64,000 nucleotides of DNA from Marinoscillum pacificum. GTDB lineage: Bacteria; Bacteroidota; Bacteroidia; Cytophagales; Cyclobacteriaceae. Shown piece after piece: positions 9,070-20,177 of the stretch. Below the pieces are notes generated by a model. That model was not told the DNA's origin and did not search any database. It worked only from the letters and a program-made list of their open reading frames with translations. The stretch's first letter is position 1. The number at the start of each line of letters is the position of its first letter. The position numbers were made by a program, and so were the translations under genes. The DNA lies in NCBI RefSeq assembly GCF_024714495.1, contig NZ_JAMZMJ010000003.1, positions 186,001 through 250,000 of the forward strand, written 5' to 3'.

Positions 9070-9223
9070 TAAGTTGTGAATATATAAATGTCATTGATTA
9101 GATCTTTGTTTTTTGATGGTAAAATGATTTGTGATAAAGTCAACAGGGTTGTTTAAATTAATCGTAAAAATTACGTTAATTAAAATTTTAAATTAATTAG
9201 CCCAATTACTACTATCCCAAAAC

Positions 9224-10756
9224 ATGGAAATGATGATGAGATTACTATACGTTTTTGCTGTTCTTTCAATGTTGATTGGCTGCGGACCACAACTAAAACC
9301 GGTCTCTGAACAACGTAATCTCATTCCAGGAGAACTCCCGGATCCATCGATTATAGAAGTTGATGGAACTTATTATCTCACTGGATCTTCCAATGATTGG
9401 GGACCAGTCTACCCGATCTATCAATCGACAGATTTGAAGAATTGGAGCATTGTGACTTACGTTTTTGCAGAGCAACCTTCATGGACAATCAATAGTTTTT
9501 GGGCACCTGAGCTCTATTATCGAGATGGTAAATTCTATTGTTATTATACCGCCAGACGTACCGATGGTGTATCAGGGATTGGTGTGGCCGTAACTGATGA
9601 TATTACCAAGGGCTTTGAAGACAAAGGGCAAATCATTGAATGGGGAAGTGAAGCCATTGATGCGTTTGTCTATGAAGATCAGGACAAATTATATATCACC
9701 TGGAAAGCTTATGGCTTAAACCCAGATAAGCCAATTACTATATTAGGTTCTGAGTTGAGTGAAAATGGGTTGTCGTTGAAAGGAGCAGTATTTACCGTGT
9801 TAGAAGCTGATGCAGATGGATGGGAGCGAGGCGGAATAGAAGGTCAGTGCATTGTGAAAAAGGGAGATTATCTATATATGCTCTATTCTGGAAATGCTTG
9901 TTGTGGTAGTGGATGTGATTACATGGTAGGAGTGGCCAGGTCTAAGAGTATATTAGGTCCATGGGAAAAGTACGTTTCCAATCCATTGTTGAAAGGTAAT
10001 GCTCAATGGAAATGTCCAGGACATGGTACTGCTGTTGAGGTAAATGAAAATTGGCAATACGTGTATCATGCTTACAGTTCAGAAGGTTTTCCAAACATGG
10101 GACGTACCAATTTGATCAGTCAGATCAACTGGGACTCCAGTTCTGAATGGCCATATGTTGATATTCCCAATGATTCGACTGAAGTCAAGTTAGTAACCAC
10201 TGATTTTAAGGATGTGTTTGATGGTGAATCGATAAATTATAGGTGGAGATATGATATTCCTAACAATCACTTCACGGCTAGTTTGGATTCAGGAAAATTA
10301 CGATTATCTGAAACCGGTGAAGGAAACAATCCTTCAGGGGCAAGTTTAGTGATAGATCCTCAGGTTGCTGATTTTACCATGCAGACGACCATCAGTCAGC
10401 AGAATAATTCTTTAAAAGGATTGATTCTTTATGTGACCAAATCGAACAATCTTGGATTTGGAGTTGCTGGCGATAGTTTGGTTGTTTGGAAAGTGAAAGA
10501 TGGAGAGTTTTATGAGCTTGAGAAGATTGCTGTCAAGTCTGTTAACAAAATAGATTTGAAAGCGGATGTTGTTGATGCACAGGAGATTATGTTTTCATAT
10601 AAACTTGATAATGACGAATGGAAAACTATAAAAACTGCTGTCTCTGGAGATAATCTTGCCTGGTGGTCCTGGGGAACGAAAGCAGGGTTATTTGTCAAAG
10701 GAGCCGCTCACAATGGAGAAGGTGCTTTTGATGAGTTCAGCATTTCTTATCACTGA
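9224..10756 (+). CDS. Glycoside hydrolase family 43 lipoprotein
   Basis: 510 residues with a lipoprotein signal (LSMLIGC, Cys20). The five-bladed propeller of GH43 is recognisable: ELPDPSII supplies the general base Asp40, AIDAFVYEDQDKLYITW holds the pKa-modulating Asp, and GGIEGQCIV the acid Glu. An extra beta-rich domain from about residue 325 to the end resembles the C-terminal sandwich found in beta-xylosidase/arabinofuranosidase members. A CCGSGC cluster in the catalytic part is unusual. Expected activity is removal of arabinose or xylose from plant or algal polysaccharide at the cell surface; the exact bond cannot be told. It is divergent from the first sigma/FecR operon. Confidence 0.9.
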   Translation: MEMMMRLLYVFAVLSMLIGCGPQLKPVSEQRNLIPGELPDPSIIEVDGTYYLTGSSNDWGPVYPIYQSTDLKNWSIVTYVFAEQPSWTINSFWAPELYYRDGKFYCYYTARRTDGVSGIGVAVTDDITKGFEDKGQIIEWGSEAIDAFVYEDQDKLYITWKAYGLNPDKPITILGSELSENGLSLKGAVFTVLEADADGWERGGIEGQCIVKKGDYLYMLYSGNACCGSGCDYMVGVARSKSILGPWEKYVSNPLLKGNAQWKCPGHGTAVEVNENWQYVYHAYSSEGFPNMGRTNLISQINWDSSSEWPYVDIPNDSTEVKLVTTDFKDVFDGESINYRWRYDIPNNHFTASLDSGKLRLSETGEGNNPSGASLVIDPQVADFTMQTTISQQNNSLKGLILYVTKSNNLGFGVAGDSLVVWKVKDGEFYELEKIAVKSVNKIDLKADVVDAQEIMFSYKLDNDEWKTIKTAVSGDNLAWWSWGTKAGLFVKGAAHNGEGAFDEFSISYH

Positions 10757-10941
10757 TACAGGTGCGCTTAAAAAAGTATTTGAAATAAAAGGATTGGTAT
10801 GCTTTTGGTCTTTCATCCTATGAGGCCAATGTCTGTAGAGACTCAACATTTAAAGGTAAATGAAGATGATTTCGTTCCTCAATAAAAATGACTGATAGGT
10901 AACTTAAAACCTTCCTTGACTATGATAGGGTAATGTTTGTT

Positions 10942-11538
10942 TTACTTTTCGCACTGAGTATTGTAGAAAGTGACAATTTCCTGAGGTATTTTGAAATCTC
11001 CATTGGAGAGATTGCGCTTAAGATCAGGGCAATCAGAGAAGAAGGACGATAAAACTTTCTTTTTTAAGCCGAAAATTCCCTGCGTTGCTCGGGCCATTAC
11101 ATCTTCATTAGCTTTTTTGAGTAATGGAAAACGCGACGGTTGATCATCCATTCCATCTACCCAGTAGTAATAATACATGGATACAGGGCCTTCGGTTACT
11201 ACTTCTAAAAATTTCTCATTTCCTCCAAAATCAACAATTTGGTAATGGTTGGTTAAAATATTTAATTCAGGTACCGCTTGTAACCGGAATTTTCGATAAA
11301 TGTGATGACCAATACCTATTTCCTGAATTTCACTATGCGCATATTTTTTACGCTTCCGTTTTTGATTAGTCAGGCGAATTTTAGAAAAGTGTTTGTCTTT
11401 GGTAAGCAGTTGTTCATATCGATCAATCGATCCAAAAAGACTGTCTCCATTGGTCAATATCACATAGTCAGATTGGGCAGTTAGAGGGATTGATATTGAA
11501 CTGGAGAAAATCAGTAGAACTAATGAAAGCTTGATCAT
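10942..11538 (-). CDS. Hypothetical secreted protein
   Basis: 198 residues with a signal peptide (hydrophobic 4-19, cut after LTAQ). The mature start YVILTNGDSLFGSIDRY is a pattern seen in many uncharacterised exported proteins of Bacteroidota. A basic stretch (NQKRKRKKYAHSE) follows, and the rest is beta-rich. No enzyme motif was recognised. It lies alone on the minus strand between the GH43 gene and the second sigma factor gene, so a link to glycan use is only positional. Confidence 0.75.
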   Translation of the reverse strand: MIKLSLVLLIFSSSISIPLTAQSDYVILTNGDSLFGSIDRYEQLLTKDKHFSKIRLTNQKRKRKKYAHSEIQEIGIGHHIYRKFRLQAVPELNILTNHYQIVDFGGNEKFLEVVTEGPVSMYYYYWVDGMDDQPSRFPLLKKANEDVMARATQGIFGLKKKVLSSFFSDCPDLKRNLSNGDFKIPQEIVTFYNTQCEK

Positions 11539-11824
11539 GATGAAAAATACAGTTTCTTCGTCAAATCAAGATGCAAGTTGAGGAAAAAATGGCTTGGTGA
11601 TTTTACTTCCTTCATAACTCATCAATTCATCAGTCAGATCTAATTTCAATTTGTCATTAGAATGCTGGATGAGTACTAGTAAAAACAGTTGTGTGTAGAT
11701 TATTTGATTTTTCAAGCTAAGCAATTATCGATAGGAGAACTTGTAGACTTTTTATGACTAATTCATTTCATTTTTCTTAATTTGTGCGTTATTCTGAAGT
11801 GTTTTCTTAGTCTTTTGGTTTAAA

Positions 11825-12469
11825 ATGTCTCGTAAAATTCACAAATTATCAATTGCGGTTCCCCAGTCTGAACAAGAATGGGAAATCTACTTTGAGGTGA
11901 TTTATAAGGAATATTTTAAAAGATTATATGCATATGCCAGAGCCATCGTCGATTCTCAGAGTCTGGCAAAAGATGTTGTTTCCGATTTGTTTTTGGGTTT
12001 ATGGAAGAATAAAGAAAACCTTGGTCAAGTGGATGATCTTGAGGTTTACTTATTTGTTTCTACTCGCAATCAAGCCGTTCAGGCCTTAAAGAAGAATCAA
12101 GCTATGCCATTATCTAAGGAGTCTCTTGAGATCAAATTGGAGTCAATTGATTACATCAATCCTGAAGAGCTATTATTAGAAAAGGAACTTCTTGTATTAT
12201 TGAAGAAAGTAACAGCTGAATTGCCAGATCAATGTCGATTGATTTTTGAACTATCCATTGAGAGAGGTCTTAAAAACTCAGAGATTGCAAAGGAATTAGG
12301 GATATCTCCAGTGACCGTGAAAAGTCAGAAAAGGAAGGCACAAACCAAGCTTAAAGCGGCAATTTTAAAATATTATCATGATCATGATGATTCTAATTTG
12401 CCTGATATCCGAATGATTAGCCAGTATCTCCTGTTAACTGGTGTTATCAATTATGATTTGTTTGGTTAA
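11825..12469 (+). CDS. ECF RNA polymerase sigma factor of the SusCD locus
   Basis: 214 residues. Region 2 at about 25-90 (YKEYFKRLYAYARAIVDSQS, DVVSDLFLGLWKN) and region 4 at about 140-190 (LPDQCRLIFELSIERGLKNS, then SPVTVKSQKRKAQTKL) give the Bacteroidetes family 1 sigma-70 type. A C-terminal tail of about 25 residues ends in a hydrophobic stretch. The fecR gene starts 136 bp downstream and susC/susD follow, so this factor probably activates the SusCD operon when the receptor is loaded. Confidence 0.95.
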   Translation: MSRKIHKLSIAVPQSEQEWEIYFEVIYKEYFKRLYAYARAIVDSQSLAKDVVSDLFLGLWKNKENLGQVDDLEVYLFVSTRNQAVQALKKNQAMPLSKESLEIKLESIDYINPEELLLEKELLVLLKKVTAELPDQCRLIFELSIERGLKNSEIAKELGISPVTVKSQKRKAQTKLKAAILKYYHDHDDSNLPDIRMISQYLLLTGVINYDLFG

Positions 12470-12605
12470 TTGCCCAATTCATTGAGGAAGTAGTTGGTGA
12501 AATAAGGTATTTGTTGATTTGAATGCAATTATTTAAAACTTTGAGCGCCTTTTGCTTTGTTTCAGACTCCTTAATATGTAGCGCAGTTAAAGCGCCACCT
12601 ATTAT

Positions 12606-13583
12606 ATGGAAGACCTACTATACAAGTATCTAAATAATGAGCTATCTCAAGAAGAATGGGTGGAGCTACGTCACTGGTTAGATAAGAGCGACCTTAACAA
12701 AACAACACTTAATAACCTTAAATCTTTCACATCTAACATCAGTCATGAGGCAGATGAGTTAGAGCAATTAGTGTGGAAAGAGTTAAAACTTGCCAATCAA
12801 GCAAATAAGCAGGTGTACCCAAAGTCTTCCCGTACATTATGGCCTTTCTTAAAAGTGGCTGCAGTTTTTCTAATTCTTTCAGCCTTGACAGTTCTTGCTT
12901 ATCGGTTATATCATCAGAAAGCAGAACCTCAACAGGTTTTAATATCGATAATCATCAAAGAAGCTCCTATGGGGAGCAAAATAAAAACCAGATTACCAGA
13001 TGGAACTACTGTTACTCTAAACGCTGGATCAAAGCTTTACTATCCAGAGTCATTTACCAATGAACATAGAATTGTTCAACTAGAAGGTGAAGCTTTTTTT
13101 GACGTTACTCATGATCCTGAGAAACCGTTTTTTGTTGAGTTTAATGATAGCGAAGTAAAGGTATTGGGTACTTCGTTTAATATAAGAGCATATCAGGAGG
13201 AGCAAACCTCTGCAGTCTCTGTGGCTACTGGTAAGGTGTCCTTCAAGTCTCAGGACGATGAATTAATTCTATTGCCTATGCAAATGGGTGTTCAAAACCA
13301 TCAAACATCAGAGATGACTAAAAAGAAAGTCGATCAGCTAGAGGCTTTCGGATGGACAGAAAAAATTCTTTATTTCAACCATACAACATTTGATAAGGTG
13401 ATTAAAGATCTCGAGCGTTGGTATGGCGTCAATTTTGAAATCAATGGAGACTTTACTCCTCTTGGTACTTTTTCAGGAGAGTTTAGAAATGAGTCACTTA
13501 ATCAAGTATTGCAGGGATTAGCACATATCTACCATTTTGACTTCAAGATCGAAAAAGGTCATGTGACACTTGATAAAAAATAA
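12606..13583 (+). CDS. FecR-family anti-sigma factor of the SusCD locus
   Basis: 325 residues. An N-terminal sigma-binding segment (about 1-75) is followed by one membrane helix at about 81-98. The FecR domain (about 120-215) has SKIKTRLPDGTTVTLNAGS, LEGEAFFDV and VKVLGTSFNI. A DUF4974 module at about 245-325 begins EAFGWTEKILYFNHTTFD. It sits between the sigma factor gene and susC and should pass the signal from SusC's STN domain to the sigma factor. Confidence 0.95.
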   Translation: MEDLLYKYLNNELSQEEWVELRHWLDKSDLNKTTLNNLKSFTSNISHEADELEQLVWKELKLANQANKQVYPKSSRTLWPFLKVAAVFLILSALTVLAYRLYHQKAEPQQVLISIIIKEAPMGSKIKTRLPDGTTVTLNAGSKLYYPESFTNEHRIVQLEGEAFFDVTHDPEKPFFVEFNDSEVKVLGTSFNIRAYQEEQTSAVSVATGKVSFKSQDDELILLPMQMGVQNHQTSEMTKKKVDQLEAFGWTEKILYFNHTTFDKVIKDLERWYGVNFEINGDFTPLGTFSGEFRNESLNQVLQGLAHIYHFDFKIEKGHVTLDKK

Positions 13584-13661
13584 GCATAATAACCATAATC
13601 TATAACCAAACTAAAACCCTTATGATATCCAGAGAACCCTAGCTACTTAACCAAAAAAGAA

Positions 13662-13706
13662 CCCACAAGTCCTGTTTTGTCTGCGAAACGGTACAGGAAA
13701 TGTGGG
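13662..13706 (+). promoter_or_regulatory. Hairpin in the susC 5' leader
   Basis: Between fecR and susC lies an extended hairpin. CCCACA (13662-13667) pairs with TGTGGG (13701-13706), and inside it CCTGT (13671-13675) pairs with ACAGG (13693-13697). The two helices are separated by an AGT/AAA internal loop, and there is a further short GTTT/AAAC closing. It ends 40 nt before the susC start. No T-run follows, so it is not an intrinsic terminator. It could be a leader element that stabilises the susCD message or binds a small RNA; the function is inferred. Confidence 0.5.
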
Positions 13707-13745
13707 CCACAGTTTCGATAAATCATTTACCAAAACCTAATTTTT

Positions 13746-16700
13746 ATGGAATCAAAATTACATAAAATAGTTATTACTATGTCCAAAATGTGCATATACG
13801 CAATAGTTATACAGCTTTCTGTATACACATTGGCATTTGCTATGGACGGAAAGGCGCAAAATAAAAGCGTCAATGAGATTCGGGTGAACCTGAACCTAAA
13901 AGCTCCTACCAAACTCAATAAGGTGCTGGAGTCCATAGAGAAAAATACAGAATTCTACTTTTCGTTCAGAGACAATGAGGTGAAGAGTTCTGCATACAGA
14001 CTAAATTCAATAACTGAACAAACGACTCTTGGAGATCTGTTAATGGATATTTCCGAGCAGACAGATCTGTCATTCAAGCGGATTAATAACAATATCTACA
14101 TTTCCAAGAAGGAAGATGAAGGAAATAATGGAATTGAAGAAATAATCCAGGAGGATATAGAGATCTCAGGTATTGTAACCGATGAAAAAGGTGAGCCTCT
14201 TCCTGGAGCAACTATTGTCGAAAAAGGAACTTCAAATGGAACTATTACTGATGCTGATGGTTCGTTTAAACTTTCTGTATCAGAAGGAACTACTATAGTG
14301 GTAGGGTTTCTAGGTTATTTACCACAGGAGATTACCTTATCGGGTCAATCAAGCTTAAGGGTAACATTGATAGAAGACCTCACCAATTTAGATGAAGTCG
14401 TAGTTGTAGCATTTGGTACACAGAAGGAGTATTCAATCGTAGGTTCTGTATCTACTATTGAGCCAAATAGGCTACAAAACAGCACTAAGCGATCTCTTAG
14501 TAATAATCTAGGGGGGCAAATATCAGGAATCATTGCCGTGCAGCGCTCAGGTGAACCAGGGTATGATAACTCTAACTTTTGGATCAGAGGGATATCCACT
14601 TTTGCCGGAGCTCGATCACCACTCGTTTTGATTGATGGAGTGGAGCGTTCTTTAAATAACATTGATCCTGCAGAGATTGCCTCATTTTCCGTATTGAAAG
14701 ACGCGGCTGCTAGTGCTGTATATGGTGTGAGAGGTGCCAACGGTGTAATATTGATCAATACCAAACGTGGACAGATAGGAAAACCTTCGGTTGATATTCG
14801 GTATGAACAAGGATATACGCAACCTGTGAAGTTGCCGGAGTTTTTAGGAGCAGCTGATTATTTAACCCTGTTGAATGATATTGCATTGGAGTCTGGTCAG
14901 CCTCAACCTTACACAGATGAGCGGATACAGAATATTAGAGATAATGTAGATCCGGATTTGTATTCGGATGTCAACTGGTTGGATGCGATTACGAATGATC
15001 ATGCTTCCAATAGTCGATTAAACCTAACAGTTTCTGGAGGGAACGAAATCTTAAGATATTCTTTGGTGAGTTCCTTTTATGGAGAAAATGGAATCATCGC
15101 ACGAGATGACGCACAGTCGTGGGATTCATCTATGAAACTTCGCAGATACAATATGAGATCCAATGTTGACATTAATTTGACCAAGTCAACTTTGTTGAGA
15201 GTCAATATTGGTGGTTATTTGATGGATGAAAATAGGCCGCCTCAGTCTATAGATAATTTATTTGGAAGAGCGTTCGAGACACCTCCTTTTGTGCATCCAA
15301 CCATTTATTCTTCAGGTGAAATACCAGTAGTTCCTCAACGAGATAATCCATGGGCTCTTGCCACTCAAACTGGTTATGAAAGACGCAGTGGGAGCAAATT
15401 GGAATCATTGTTTTCGATCAACCAGGACCTAGATAATATTCTTCCAGGATTGAAAACGAAGGCACTTTTCGCATTTGATAGATACTCGAGCAACGGTGTT
15501 TTGAGAAGTAAAAGCCCGGATTATTACAATCCAGCAGTAGGCAGAAATGAAGATGGAAGTTTGGATTTAATTATTTATCAATATGGGCAAGATTTTCTTG
15601 GATATGAAGCAACATCTGAATGGGGTGATAAAAATATCTACTCGCAATGGGATTTGACTTATACGAGAAACTTTGGTAAGAATTATGTCGACTTGATGTT
15701 TCTGTACAATCAGCGAAACTATGATAATGGTGATCGCTTGCCATTTAGAAACCAGGGGATAGCCGGAAGATTCTCTTATGCATATGATCATAGATATGTT
15801 GCCGAGGTGAATTTTGGATATAATGGCTCAGAGAATTTTGCTGAAGGGCAGCGCTATGGATTGTTTCCTTCAATAGCCGTGGGTTGGCTGTTGAGTGAAG
15901 AGCCTTTCATGGCGTCATACAAGAATGTGTTTGATAAAATTAAGTTCAGAGCTTCCTATGGCCTGGTTGGTAATGATCAAATAGACGGAAGACGGTTTGC
16001 TTACATAACTACTATTGGAGATACTAACGGTTATACCTGGGGAGTAAACAATGATTACTCCAGAGCGGGGCGTACGGAAGGAGATTACGGAGTATCTAAT
16101 TTAACCTGGGAAACGGTTACTAAAGCCAATATTGGTCTGGAATTGGGTGTTTTCAACAGTGTTAAACTTCAGGCAGATGTGTTTAAGGAAGTCAGGGATG
16201 ATATATTCATGCAGCGCAGGTCTGTGCCAGGTTCTAGTGGCTTTGTGAATACGCCTTGGGCCAATTATGGTAAAGTTGACAACAGAGGTATTGATCTTTC
16301 ATTGAATGTAAACAACAATATCTCGCGTGACTTCAATGTCTCCATGTGGGGAACATTTACTTATGCAGTTAATGAAATTCTAGAGCAAGATGAACCAAGT
16401 ACCATCATTGGCACCAATAGATCCTCTACAGGTAAACCTGTAAATCAAATCTTCGGATTGATTGCTGAAGGACTATTTACAGAGTCCGATTTTGCTAATG
16501 TGGAAACAGGTGAATTGCTAGAATCTGTACCTGGCCACACCTTCGGACCTGTGAGACCTGGAGATATCAAATATCAGGATGTTAATGAAGATGGAGTTAT
16601 CAATGATCTGGATAGAACTGCAATTGGCGGAACTGTAGATCCTCAAATTATCTATGGGTTTGGATTAAATATGAGGTACAAGAGTTTAGATTTTGGTGTT

Positions 16701-17126
16701 TTCTTCCAGGGTAATGCCTTAACCTATAGAATGATTGGTGGTTCGTCGTTCATTCCAGGGTCTAATAATGGTGCATTGGGTAATTACTTTTCTAATGCCG
16801 ATGATCGATGGACAGTTGAGAACCCAAGTCAGGATGTCTTCTGGCCAAGACTTTCTAACTATCAACACGCTAACAATAACCAGGCTTCTACCTGGTGGCT
16901 TAAAGACATGAGCATGTTAAGAATGAAAAACATAGAGATAGGATATAATTTCCCTGTCGCTATCATTAACAAAATTCACATGAAAGATGCCCGTGTTTTT
17001 GTTAGGGGGGACAATTTGTTGACATTCTCAGGATTTGATCTTTGGGATCCGGAATTAGATACAGGTAATGGTTTTAGATACCCTATTATGAGATCTTTCT
17101 CTGCAGGTCTAAACTTCAATTTTTAA
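13746..17126 (+). CDS. susC: SusC/RagA-type TonB-linked outer membrane transporter with STN domain
   Basis: 1126 residues. Order: signal region; STN domain at about 45-118; carboxypeptidase-regulatory-like domain at about 138-205 (SGIVTDEKGEPLPGATIVEK); TonB box and plug (VVVVAFGTQKEYSIVGSVST, then LVLIDGVERSLNNIDP and GVRGANGVILI); and a long 22-strand barrel ending in ...LNFNF, a typical aromatic C-terminus. SusC proteins pull glycan oligomers through the outer membrane under a SusD lid. The STN domain identifies this one as the receptor of the sigma/FecR pair just upstream. susD follows after 29 bp. The substrate is not told by sequence; a neighbouring GH43 suggests an arabinose- or xylose-containing glycan. 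Confidence 0.96.
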   Translation: MESKLHKIVITMSKMCIYAIVIQLSVYTLAFAMDGKAQNKSVNEIRVNLNLKAPTKLNKVLESIEKNTEFYFSFRDNEVKSSAYRLNSITEQTTLGDLLMDISEQTDLSFKRINNNIYISKKEDEGNNGIEEIIQEDIEISGIVTDEKGEPLPGATIVEKGTSNGTITDADGSFKLSVSEGTTIVVGFLGYLPQEITLSGQSSLRVTLIEDLTNLDEVVVVAFGTQKEYSIVGSVSTIEPNRLQNSTKRSLSNNLGGQISGIIAVQRSGEPGYDNSNFWIRGISTFAGARSPLVLIDGVERSLNNIDPAEIASFSVLKDAAASAVYGVRGANGVILINTKRGQIGKPSVDIRYEQGYTQPVKLPEFLGAADYLTLLNDIALESGQPQPYTDERIQNIRDNVDPDLYSDVNWLDAITNDHASNSRLNLTVSGGNEILRYSLVSSFYGENGIIARDDAQSWDSSMKLRRYNMRSNVDINLTKSTLLRVNIGGYLMDENRPPQSIDNLFGRAFETPPFVHPTIYSSGEIPVVPQRDNPWALATQTGYERRSGSKLESLFSINQDLDNILPGLKTKALFAFDRYSSNGVLRSKSPDYYNPAVGRNEDGSLDLIIYQYGQDFLGYEATSEWGDKNIYSQWDLTYTRNFGKNYVDLMFLYNQRNYDNGDRLPFRNQGIAGRFSYAYDHRYVAEVNFGYNGSENFAEGQRYGLFPSIAVGWLLSEEPFMASYKNVFDKIKFRASYGLVGNDQIDGRRFAYITTIGDTNGYTWGVNNDYSRAGRTEGDYGVSNLTWETVTKANIGLELGVFNSVKLQADVFKEVRDDIFMQRRSVPGSSGFVNTPWANYGKVDNRGIDLSLNVNNNISRDFNVSMWGTFTYAVNEILEQDEPSTIIGTNRSSTGKPVNQIFGLIAEGLFTESDFANVETGELLESVPGHTFGPVRPGDIKYQDVNEDGVINDLDRTAIGGTVDPQIIYGFGLNMRYKSLDFGVFFQGNALTYRMIGGSSFIPGSNNGALGNYFSNADDRWTVENPSQDVFWPRLSNYQHANNNQASTWWLKDMSMLRMKNIEIGYNFPVAIINKIHMKDARVFVRGDNLLTFSGFDLWDPELDTGNGFRYPIMRSFSAGLNFNF

Positions 17127-17155
17127 TCAATCAGGAAAGAAAATATAACTCAATC

Positions 17156-19009
17156 ATGAAGATCTTAAGATATATTTTAATAATCTCAGTATTGACCTCT
17201 GTAAGTGCGTGTTCTGATTATTTGGACAAAATGCCTGATGATCAATTAACACTAGAAATGGTGTTCAATGATAAAACCAGAACCGAAGATTGGCTGGCAG
17301 GAATCTATTCCAATATTCCAGATCCATATTGGGGTTTCGCCAGATCCATTGGCTATGACGCACTATCAGATGATATGGCACCATCGGCTAGATGGGAGCA
17401 ATGGGGTTGGGGAGTGATAGGTAAACAGACTGGCAATTGGAATACTGCCACAGGTTGGGATCCAAATTACTGGTCAGAGTTGCCTAAGCGCATACGAGCT
17501 GCTTATATATTCATGGAGAATGTAAGACCAAATCCTTCACAAAAGGTGACGGAAGTAGAGGTGGAAAATATGAAAAATGAAGCCAGGTTTCTGATTGCTT
17601 ATTATTACTGGCTGATGTTGGAAGCATATGGTCCAGTACCCTTTACACTTGGTCTTACAGCTAGCGACGCTTCTGAAGAAGAACTGTTTATTGGCCAGAC
17701 ACCATTTGACCAGATTGTAGATTGGATTGACTCTGAACTTGTGCAGTTGTCTACCTTATTGCCCGATAGTTATTCAGAAAACCAGAAGTTTGGTAGAGCT
17801 ACTTCCATTATGTGTTTAGCCGTTCGTGCCAGGATGCTATTGTTTGCTGCAAGTCCTTTGACTAATGGAAATCCTGATTACGCAGGACATGTTAACGACA
17901 AAGGCGAGGAATTATTCAATTCAACTTATGATCCTGGAAAATGGAATAGGGCAGCGTTAGCTTCCAAAGAGCTGATAGATGCTGCAGACGCTGCGGGTCA
18001 TGAGTTGTATTATGAGTACAATGATGATGGTACAATAGACCCATTTTTGTCATATCAAAACATGATGTTCAAAAGATCTTCAGATGGTAATAGGGAAATA
18101 CTTTTTTCCAGACCAAATTGTGATACCTGGGAATATGATAAACATGCGCAACCAAGAGGAACTGGAGGTAATGGTGGTATGAGTGTTACTCAGTCATTGG
18201 TGGATGCATTTTTCATGAAAAATGGTTTGCCAATAGATGATCCTAACTCTGGTTATACAGAAGATGGCTTTTCTACAGAACCAGAATTTAGAAATACTAA
18301 ATGGATAGAAGTACAAGGAAATCAAGAAGGTAATGAGGGTAAAGTGACCCTTGAGGGAACTTATAACATGTACTGCAATCGCGAGCCCCGTTTTTATATT
18401 TCTGTTTTGTATAATAGGGCCTGGTTTAGAAGAGAAGATCGAACTACTCGGTTTTTAAGTGAGGAATGGGATGGAGGACCTACTCATGATGCTCCTCAAA
18501 ATGGGTATTTGGTAAGAAAAAAGGTACATCCTGATCATGATCCAAGAAATGGAATCAATCCTTATCGCCCTGGAATTCTTTACAGACTTGGAGAGGCATA
18601 TCTAAACTATGCCGAAGCACTCAATGAAAGTAGTCCTGGAAATCCTGATATTTTAACTTACGTCAATCTAATTCGCGAACGAGCGGGAATTCCTGGTTTG
18701 CCTAGTGGCTTAGGGCAGGATGAAATGAGAGAAGCAATCAGAAGAGAACGTCGTGTTGAGCTCAACTGTGAAGGGATTCGTTATGATGATATTCGTAGAT
18801 GGAAGATGGGGGAAGAAGTTCTGAACGCACCATTTATGGGAATGAATTTCAATGGCACGCAGATTAGTGATGATGAAAATAATCCGGATGCATACTTTAT
18901 TAGGACTATGTATCAGCAACGTGTTTTCACTAAGAAAAATTACTGGTTTCCTGTACCTCAATCAGAAAGAGATAAGAACCCTAATCTGGTTCAAAATCCA
19001 TATTGGTAA
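17156..19009 (+). CDS. susD: SusD/RagB-family glycan-binding lipoprotein
   Basis: 617 residues with lipoprotein signal (SVSACSDYLDK, Cys19 or so), surface-exposed. The TPR-like helical fold of the family is recognisable from YYWLMLEAYGPVPFT, the ARMLLFAASPLTNG stretch, and the conserved C-terminal block YRLGEAYLNYAEALNES ... REAIRRERRVEL ... DDIRRWK. It forms the lid over SusC and captures glycans at the cell surface. It is the last gene of the plus-strand operon and ends 32 bp before a hairpin terminator shared with ssrA. Confidence 0.96.
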   Translation: MKILRYILIISVLTSVSACSDYLDKMPDDQLTLEMVFNDKTRTEDWLAGIYSNIPDPYWGFARSIGYDALSDDMAPSARWEQWGWGVIGKQTGNWNTATGWDPNYWSELPKRIRAAYIFMENVRPNPSQKVTEVEVENMKNEARFLIAYYYWLMLEAYGPVPFTLGLTASDASEEELFIGQTPFDQIVDWIDSELVQLSTLLPDSYSENQKFGRATSIMCLAVRARMLLFAASPLTNGNPDYAGHVNDKGEELFNSTYDPGKWNRAALASKELIDAADAAGHELYYEYNDDGTIDPFLSYQNMMFKRSSDGNREILFSRPNCDTWEYDKHAQPRGTGGNGGMSVTQSLVDAFFMKNGLPIDDPNSGYTEDGFSTEPEFRNTKWIEVQGNQEGNEGKVTLEGTYNMYCNREPRFYISVLYNRAWFRREDRTTRFLSEEWDGGPTHDAPQNGYLVRKKVHPDHDPRNGINPYRPGILYRLGEAYLNYAEALNESSPGNPDILTYVNLIRERAGIPGLPSGLGQDEMREAIRRERRVELNCEGIRYDDIRRWKMGEEVLNAPFMGMNFNGTQISDDENNPDAYFIRTMYQQRVFTKKNYWFPVPQSERDKNPNLVQNPYW

Positions 19010-19041
19010 GTATTTGTAATAGATATAAGGAAGTAACATAA

Positions 19042-19068
19042 AAAAGCCTCGCTCAATGCGAGGCTTTT
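19042..19068. terminator. Bidirectional terminator between susD and ssrA
   Basis: A perfect 11-bp stem (AAAAGCCTCGC with GCGAGGCTTTT) around a TCAAT loop, with T-runs on both strands. It serves susD on the plus strand and ssrA on the minus strand: the mature 3' end of tmRNA lies at 19075, only 7 nt before the stem. Confidence 0.92.
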
Positions 19069-19092
19069 ATTTTGTGGAGTCGGAGGGATTCG

Positions 19093-19485
19093 CTATTCCC
19101 ATTGCTTAAGTAAAGACTCTATTGCTTGCCTTTCAGTCAAAGAATATTTTCCGTTTCTCTTACTGTGAGATTTATATTCTCTGATGAAATTAATTCTCTT
19201 CAATTTTTTCGGATGATAAATATTTAATCGATCCGCAAGAACTGAAAATTTTGAAAAGTAGGAATATCGGAGCTCAGATTGATCAGAATATCCTTTCTTC
19301 TTTTTGGTAACAATAGTTCCTTTAATCTCAAGCTGTTTATAAATGAACTTGTTGATCTTTTCCAAAATAATTCTCTCATTGTTATGAAAGGTTATAACAG
19401 GACTTGGTAATTGGTTTGGATGAATTTTATTCAATTGAATAGAACCATCGGCATCAAAAAAACCAGATATGTAATTCCAATTCAT
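19093..19485 (-). CDS. LAGLIDADG homing endonuclease of the ssrA intron
   Basis: 130 residues from the ATG at 19485 (a TTG at 19500 would add five). The segment YISGFFDADGSI at residues 5-16 is a LAGLIDADG helix with its two acidic residues. Only one copy is present, so it should act as a homodimer, like I-CreI, cutting an intron-less ssrA T-loop site and driving intron copying. The middle is rich in Lys/Arg (KKKKGYSDQSELRYSYFSKF), as expected of DNA-binding strands. The TAG stop codon ends on the very last base of the intron. The frame is open for about 25 codons upstream of the ATG but without another good start. It looks intact, so recent homing is plausible. Confidence 0.88.
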   Translation of the reverse strand: MNWNYISGFFDADGSIQLNKIHPNQLPSPVITFHNNERIILEKINKFIYKQLEIKGTIVTKKKKGYSDQSELRYSYFSKFSVLADRLNIYHPKKLKRINFIREYKSHSKRNGKYSLTERQAIESLLKQWE

Positions 19486-19731
19486 AGATTGAAAATACAA
19501 ATTATCATCAAATTCATTTATCCAGAATTTCTCCTGGGATTGGACTATGTCATCACCTGTTCGAGGTGTTGGGCGCTATGGGCTCACCGTAGTGTCCCTA
19601 GTCTCTGAACCTTCTTCAGTCTTCCCTGAAGCTTGGCTGCAAATTACCATATATGACGTTTCATACTTAGGCTTCTTGCAATTCACCCAATTTTAAACTT
19701 ATCATCCCTGATAAGTGGGTCCGAATTGTCA
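19093..19731 (-). mobile_element. Group I intron inserted in the ssrA T-loop
   Basis: A 639-nt intron in the minus strand. P1: exon GGGTT (19736-19732) pairs with intron GACCC (19721-19717) and ends in the diagnostic U-G pair at the 5' splice site. P10: the adjacent guide bases ATTCG (19726-19722) pair with all five bases CGAAT that open exon 2. A P2-like hairpin follows (CTTATCA/TGATAAG). The conserved core is clear: GTTCAGAGACTAGGGACACT carries the 5' side of P7 and GATGACATAGTCC the 3' side. The last intron base is G (19093), as required for omega-G. The endonuclease gene fills the region after P7. Self-splicing is expected from the family, not shown. Confidence 0.93.
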
Positions 19732-19985
19732 AACCCTCGTCCAGCAAAGGAAATCATGGACCTTCTACATGCTTAGTTGCTCATTTGATCTCGCAGGTGA
19801 GCCGGAGAACAACACCCTACCCGGCCTGCCAGCTATTTGAGTTTCGCACAGTCTTAATAGCATCGTCTGCACTAGTCCTGAAGGTCGACACCCCTTGATC
19901 CTGATTACAGGACAGAATCCTGGAGGGATGTGGCAGGGGGAGGCTTTGGCCTCAACCCTAATTAATTACAACATCTAAGTCGTAA

Positions 19986-20015
19986 TTAGGCTGCCATGGC
20001 GTAATTAGATTCGCC
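19986..20015 (-). other. tmRNA proteolysis-tag reading frame
   Basis: The frame GGC GAA TCT AAT TAC then GCC ATG GCA GCC TAA encodes G-E-S-N-Y-A-M-A-A. It matches the Bacteroidota tag pattern that starts with Gly-Glu and ends in Ala-x-Ala-Ala, with Met where many species have Leu. The resume codon is GGC. The tag ends are signals for ClpXP and related proteases. The frame is in exon 1, so it is intact with or without splicing. Confidence 0.93.
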
Positions 20016-20147
20016 AATTATAGTTCGAGTGAATTGATCACAGGTGTACACTCGCCACCTGACATGCAAGTACATCATTTACACTTCCTGTCGATTCCGG
20101 TCGACCCCATTTAAGTGTTCGTCCCTGCCTTCTGCAGAAACGGGTTG

Positions 20148-20177
20148 CAAATATAGTAACATTGGTTACTCTACAAA
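20148..20177 (-). promoter_or_regulatory. Promoter of ssrA
   Basis: On the minus strand TTTG (20177-20174) and TATATTTG (20155-20148) stand 18 nt apart and match the Bacteroidota housekeeping consensus TTTG...TAnnTTTG. Transcription would begin near 20142, leaving about 35 nt to be removed by RNase P to give the mature tmRNA 5' end at 20108. Confidence 0.75.

Follow-up and report, generated by a model that had tools for sequence, protein, structure and literature searches.

The minus strand of the 64,000-nucleotide stretch of Marinoscillum pacificum DNA analysed here (the window) raises the question of whether its tmRNA gene, ssrA, is interrupted in the T-loop by a group I intron, whether such an intron is likely to splice and move, and from where it may have come. 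From position 20108 to 19075 the strand reads as a two-exon ssrA with a 639-nt insert (Table 1). The explanation that we favour, with a probability of roughly 93%, is that a self-splicing, and mobile, group I intron carrying a homing endonuclease gene (HEG) splits the sole detected ssrA at subsite 3 of the T-loop. The Rfam models for tmRNA (RF00023, match 20108-19713, 86.2 bits) and for the group I intron (RF00028, match 19742-19521, 92.6 bits, model positions 1-253) both scored above their gathering scores of 47 and 50. ARAGORN reported no tmRNA in the unspliced window, and a complete tmRNA with the tag GESNYAMAA once 20108-19732 was joined to 19092-19075. The joined exons form the T-stem GAGGG/CCCTC and the loop TTCGAAT, as a sequence-only reading of this DNA had proposed with exon and intron coordinates that proved exact under Rfam and ARAGORN. 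The tRNA-like domain and the tag frame lie within one gene, as a tmRNA demands (RF00023; ARAGORN), and the same tag is given in the ARAGORN list for Belliella, Cyclobacterium, Marivirga and three others. The acceptor stem carries the G3-U70 pair that marks alanine acceptors.

Table 1. Features of the ssrA locus, in window coordinates.
Feature	Position	Strand	Basis or content
Possible Bacteroidota-type promoter (TTTG, 18 nt, TATATTTG)	20148..20177	-	Read from sequence
ssrA exon 1	19732..20108	-	RF00023 86.2 bits; ARAGORN on joined exons; tRNA-like 5' half, tag frame, pseudoknot region, T-stem 5' strand, T-loop bases 1-2
Tag reading frame GESNYAMAA-stop	19986..20015	-	ARAGORN, joined exons, gene positions 94-123
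Group I intron, 639 nt, T-loop subsite 3 (TT/CGAAT), last base G	19093..19731	-	RF00028 92.6 bits
Internal guide ATTCG-GACCC	19717..19726	-	Read from sequence, drawn helices
P7 (19603-19599 with 19547-19543)	19543..19603	-	Invariant in seven introns
P3 3' strand	19575-19569	-	Enclosed by P7
P8	19568-19554	-	Enclosed by P7
P9 hairpin CCAGGA-GAAA-TTCTGG	19522..19537	-	6/6 pairs changed on both sides, seven introns
LAGLIDADG homing endonuclease ORF, 130 aa from ATG	19093..19485	-	Pfam LAGLIDADG_3 and LAGLIDADG_1 above cut-off
ssrA exon 2	19075..19092	-	ARAGORN, joined exons; remaining T-loop bases, 3' strands of T-stem and acceptor, discriminator A
Intrinsic terminator-like hairpin downstream of ssrA	19042..19068	-	11-pair stem, then T run

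The motif upstream of exon 1, picked out by eye, is a possible Bacteroidota-type promoter; a sigma-70 scan returned nothing on the minus strand. A second, uninterrupted ssrA, which the sequence-only reading had named among the findings that would refute it, was sought in the assembly (6.4 Mb, 32 contigs, rated 100% complete), and a single copy was found over the Rfam cut-off, together with six shorter tmRNA matches that all fell below it. The assembly holds one group I intron and one SmpB gene (PF01668, 186 bits) with an open frame. No second copy of the ssrA 3' end was found in the window, and the idea of a genomic island was rejected for that reason. That the interrupted gene is an artefact of assembly or binning is extremely improbable, as the window ssrA lies within one contig of 457,696 bases, the same structure occurs on a 3.7-Mb contig of a congener (G005), and the upstream matches keep the same order in G005 and in a second congener, G001.

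The splice sites and the ribozyme core were then compared with what a group I intron requires. The 5' splice site follows GGGTT and the 3' site precedes CGAAT, the intron ending in ATAG; the cut falls after the second base of the T-loop, which is position 3. The U at -1 pairs with G in P1, where GACCC (19721-19717) pairs with the exon GGGTT and places the U-G pair at the splice site, while ATTCG (19726-19722) pairs with the exon CGAAT as P10. All ten positions of the guide are paired, G-U allowed; the P1 with its U-G pair, the five-base P10 and the terminal G described earlier are all present, as is the P3-P9 core. An equally good guide was met in 657 of 200,000 random 40-mers of the intron base composition (about 0.3%), and the guide match by itself is modest, suggestive evidence; the case rests on the whole structure.

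Eleven helices from P1 to P9 were drawn on the window sequence and counted over seven introns: those of the window, G005, a 735-kb phage, a Prolixibacteraceae genome (L049), the viral contig L098 and two Flavobacteriaceae genomes (L050 and L052). Of 389 cells, 95.4% were paired, a share that dropped to 27-40% when the partners were slid by 1-3 columns, a comparison in which a structure drawn on one of the sampled sequences is favoured over its slid versions. Changes on both sides were seen in 28 of the 57 pairs, and the covariation score was 0.578 for the drawn structure versus 0.05-0.10 for the slid ones. In the seven introns P6 and P7 do not vary and no pair of P1 changes on both sides, so these helices neither gain covariation support nor are contradicted; a different P1 would be expected for L098 and for introns at subsite 7. 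Together with Rfam and ARAGORN, the covariation bears out the group I intron placed in the ssrA T-loop, and the sequence supports a tmRNA function that would depend on splicing. We infer that trans-translation would then depend on splicing as well.

In the proposed pathway, the pre-tmRNA would fold so that GACCC holds the 5' exon GGGTT in P1 and ATTCG holds the 3' exon CGAAT in P10. Attack by guanosine and ligation of the exons would recreate the TTCGAAT loop, and the RNA could then have its ends processed as usual, receive CCA and be alanylated at the G3-U70 acceptor. A decayed insertion, in which the intron no longer splices, ssrA is a pseudogene and rescue is left to another factor, is very unlikely given that the acceptor and T-stem pairs, the tag frame, the guide and P1-P9 are all intact, that SmpB is present with an open frame, and that the arrangement is retained in G005, whose ssrA is 79.7% identical.

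The intron also carries an open reading frame for a LAGLIDADG homing endonuclease, and this was the part of the locus that the sequence-only reading overlooked. The Pfam domain scores were 31.6 bits for PF14528 and 24.2 bits for PF00961, both above cut-off. An alternative TTG start at 19500 would give 135 aa, and the G of the stop codon TAG is the last base of the intron. Weak similarity was found in the PDB to I-PanMI (E 0.003) and to I-OnuI designs. Since it carries a HEG, the window intron is probably mobile: the encoded LAGLIDADG enzyme probably cleaves the T-arm of ssrA copies that lack the intron, and repair of this cut would copy the intron in.

Comparison with relatives showed both states of the gene. 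Among the five congeners searched (G001, G002, G003, G004 and G005), the same intron was found in G005 and an empty ssrA in the other four, so that with the window counted the set comprises two full and four empty alleles. The gene is uninterrupted in G001, G002 and G004; in G003 it is partial, begins at a contig end and crosses the insertion site without an intron. The G005 intron is 639 nt long and occupies the same site as that of the window. Identity between the two is 79.7% for ssrA, 86.6% for the ribozyme part, and 72.5% (nucleotide) and 72% (amino acid) for the HEG. The HEG comparison gave a dN of 0.19 and a dS of 2.3, a ratio of about 0.08 that points to purifying selection, as a rough estimate because dS is near saturation. 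The G003 allele is identical to the joined exons of the window at 268 of 270 bases, so the intron was gained or lost next to near-identical flanks, as would be expected of a homing intron. The occurrence of full and empty alleles is likewise compatible with the predicted cleavage of the intron-less allele by the HEG.

The surroundings of ssrA in G003 differ from those in the window. Some 650 bases after ssrA, the G003 sequence aligns to window positions 9090-7017 at 93%, and about 10 kb that adjoin the ssrA 3' end in the window (9090-19075), including a SusC/SusD-like pair judged by eye, are absent or moved in G003.

Relatives of the HEG occupy ssrA introns in other Bacteroidota and on viral contigs. 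Searching species genomes with the HEGs of the window and of G005 gave five loci, of which three are inside ssrA introns, one is beside ssrA and one is not near ssrA. The three are Bacteroidota MAGs: a Prolixibacteraceae MAG (L049) with a subsite-3 intron and the HEG in sense, and two Flavobacteriaceae MAGs (L050, L052) with subsite-7 introns and the HEG on the opposite strand. In a Phaeodactylibacter MAG (L051) a shortened HEG, perhaps a relic, lies just downstream of an uninterrupted ssrA on the opposite strand, and at the fifth locus (L053) 18 residues matched, not near a tmRNA.

When the viral contigs of IMG/VR were scanned with five HEGs, 22 loci were found, and at 16 of these the HEG lies inside an ssrA T-loop intron, which is the new observation of this study. 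Thirteen of the introns are at subsite 3, one is at subsite 7 (L126) and two are at subsite 8 (L125, L144). The search required a U before the intron, a terminal G, a T-stem with five bases paired and four or more pairs in P1, and these features, including the five to seven P1 pairs found, are thus not independent evidence for the viral introns. Outside the search criteria, and in agreement with them, the T-stem in all 16 is followed by seven bases ending in TCC and then by AC, which make up the acceptor strand and the 3' end. Automatic site choice was ranked and required GGAC; the sites of L052, L136 and L142 were set by hand, the latter two having no GGAC, and an automatic site in L134 was discarded as a stem of G-U pairs. 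In the T-arm of L142, the joined GAGGGTTCGAATCCCTC is that of the window. ARAGORN detected a tmRNA in 10 of the 16 loci after joining and in none of them unjoined; no tmRNA was reported for joined L126, L129, L133, L135, L140 and L144. Two of the introns, those of L124 and L128, carry the HEG in sense; in the other 14 it is antisense. The introns measure 639-768 nt, and the 16 loci are not all independent, as L137 and L138 do not differ in the alignments behind the trees. Rfam was run on 16 of the 22 loci (all but L139 and L141-L145). In L127, L130, L131, L132 and L134 an Rfam tmRNA or intron match adjoins an antisense HEG and no T-arm 3' exon is recognisable; in L132 and L134 a stretch resembling a hairpin lies a little ahead of CACCTCCAC. 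L145, at 23% identity, gave no intron candidate.

The most telling viral-contig case is L124, whose 639-nt intron has the length of those in the window and G005. It carries its HEG in sense, with the final G of the stop codon TAG as the last intron base. On this contig ssrA is flanked by genes for terminase and portal proteins, and genes of the baseplate and for a DnaB-like helicase are also present. Terminase_6N (PF03237) did not serve as a phage test, with one weak match and none of 16 records over the cut-off, and PHROGs were used instead. When five further contigs were sampled for phage genes (20 kb each, largest ORFs only), a terminase was found in L144, a phage-type DNA polymerase in L129, L137 and L143, and nothing but helicases and a GroEL in L126. 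The other ten contigs were assessed by their IMG/VR classing, by the PF03237 search and, for L128 and L140, by a few ORFs, which gave no hallmark match.

The tags predicted by ARAGORN for L124, L136, L137, L138, L139, L141, L142 and L143 have 8-33 residues ending in AA, seven of the eight exceeding the usual length of 10; the L125 tag ends in SA and the L128 tag in AI. The near-identical L137 and L138 receive different tags, so some of the predictions are doubtful.

The phage record LR756501 (735 kb; L047:1633-2248) contains an ssrA-like gene, scored at only 21.1 bits by RF00023, with a subsite-3-like group I intron (229 nt, 96.1 bits), a predicted tag of 33 aa and SmpB elsewhere in the record. 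As this intron ends in A rather than G, its splicing is doubtful. Two sequence patterns were also tried. The pattern GGGTTTGANNNNTCGGACC matched 44 stretches in viral contigs, none with a matching 3' exon, and was not selective. The core pattern AAAATTGNNTGAATTGCNNGAANCCTAAG, which among 390 genomes of the order found only the window, proved overly strict, as a single differing base hides G005 from it; among viral contigs it picked out L098 and L099, where no tmRNA match adjoins the intron. Searches of 72,556 plasmid records with the window intron (blastn) and of 50,697 named-phage records with the window HEG (tblastn) gave no match.

Trees were used to examine how the bacterial and viral introns are related. 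In a ribozyme-core tree of 30 sequences, unrooted and with several low supports, the bacterial L049, L050 and L052 fall among introns of viral contigs, subsites 3, 7 and 8 are mixed, and the window and G005 form a branch of their own. Topology tests on a smaller set of 16 sequences rejected a single clade for five subsite-3 introns (AU p 0.002). For a clade uniting the 735-kb phage with the window and G005, the AU test gave rejection (p 0.028), but the SH test did not (p 0.184); a clade uniting L049 with the window and G005 could not be rejected (p 0.071). In the unrooted HEG tree, L050 and L052 lie inside an antisense-HEG group with 100/100 support that otherwise comes from viral contigs; the other supports are uneven. 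The closest viral-contig relatives of the window HEG are L124 and L126 at 44% and 45% identity, and no recent transfer is claimed at such values.

The HEG family appears to be linked to T-loop introns of ssrA in both Bacteroidota and phages, and phage-borne ssrA genes are on that account a plausible reservoir for such introns. A more far-reaching possibility is that a LAGLIDADG family specialised on the ssrA T-arm circulates between phage and bacterial tmRNA genes, occupying introns of subsites 3, 7 and 8 in either orientation and mostly on viral contigs in the searched set, that phages are the reservoir from which Bacteroidota such as this one are seeded, and that the introns shift subsite while spreading, as opposed to each subsite having been founded once. 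We would put this history at even odds. A different history, also compatible with the intron structure favoured here, would have the intron old, kept vertically and lost separately in the congeners, with phages having no part in its spread. The ribozyme divergence between the window and G005 (13%), which does not exceed that of ssrA (20%), would fit such a history, as would the distance of the window HEG from L124 and L126 and its lack of a match among the phage records. We nevertheless consider it rather unlikely, in view of the intron's absence from G003 beside an almost identical ssrA and of the placement of L049, L050 and L052 among viral-contig introns, with the L050 and L052 HEGs in the otherwise viral antisense group. 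On circulation between phages and bacteria, the congener alleles and the viral copies make it possible to test homing from phage tmRNA genes into a single-copy bacterial RNA gene, and also whether one endonuclease family helps to explain the T-loop location of the published tmRNA introns.

Group I introns were also surveyed in the class, where 17 of 395 genomes gave a match (E up to 1e-6). Among the 20 intron matches listed, two lie within ssrA by Rfam, those of the window and of G433, in which the intron is 231 nt long, at subsite 3 and without a HEG. Other group I introns of relatives were placed by eye in tRNA genes, several of them tRNA-Leu-like (L009, L011, L012, L013, L014, L015, L016, L108, L110, L112, L118, L119 and L123). 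The family members G011, G025 and G026 gave no tmRNA over the Rfam cut-off and no group I intron match.

The class survey agrees with the available text of the catalogue of Nawrocki, Petrov and Williams (2025, PMC11915505), which lists 883 unique intron-form tmRNAs from 21 phyla, all with the intron in the T-loop, at positions 2, 3, 7 and 8. T-loop introns in ssrA were thus known, as the sequence-only reading stated, and far more widely than in its "few bacteria"; the precedent in Bacteroidota that it had left undecided exists, position 3 forms being restricted to the class Bacteroidia (PMC11915505). The genera that ARAGORN lists for the tag, and the three Bacteroidota MAGs with ssrA introns, would place the host of the window intron in this class as well. 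There, a HEG follows P9 in 4 of the 23 HEG-bearing founding sequences (844 founding sequences in all), 36 of the 883 tmRNAs in the final set have a HEG, and no intron exceeds 700 bp, in contrast to 11 of our 16 viral-contig introns, at 702-768 nt. The same source counts 79 phage tmRNAs, intron form not given, and its available text makes no mention of HEG strand, of HEGs shared between subsites or of intron forms in phages. A title and abstract search, thin on subscription journals, found no paper on intron-form ssrA in phages, and the available part of a huge-phage paper (PMC7162821) mentions tmRNAs without the word intron.

As far as the accessible text of PMC11915505 allows, the window gene fits the published kind in every respect tested: an intron in the ssrA T-loop at position 3, U at -1, a 3' G, a LAGLIDADG HEG after P9 and a length below 700 bp. 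It belongs to the class catalogued in 2025 and may already be included in that database; what is added here are the congener alleles and the viral-contig copies.

Two further systems resemble it in part. The phage introns of Dulem virus 41 (L048), which sits among CDS annotated as polymerase/primase, and of L098 have a core like that of the window (66% and 57% identity, trimmed core), but they lie outside ssrA, and their host gene and guide are unlike those of the window. The tmRNA intron at position 7 that Williams reportedly described in 2002 is, like that of the window, a T-loop group I intron in ssrA; it is inserted four bases further on and uses another guide.
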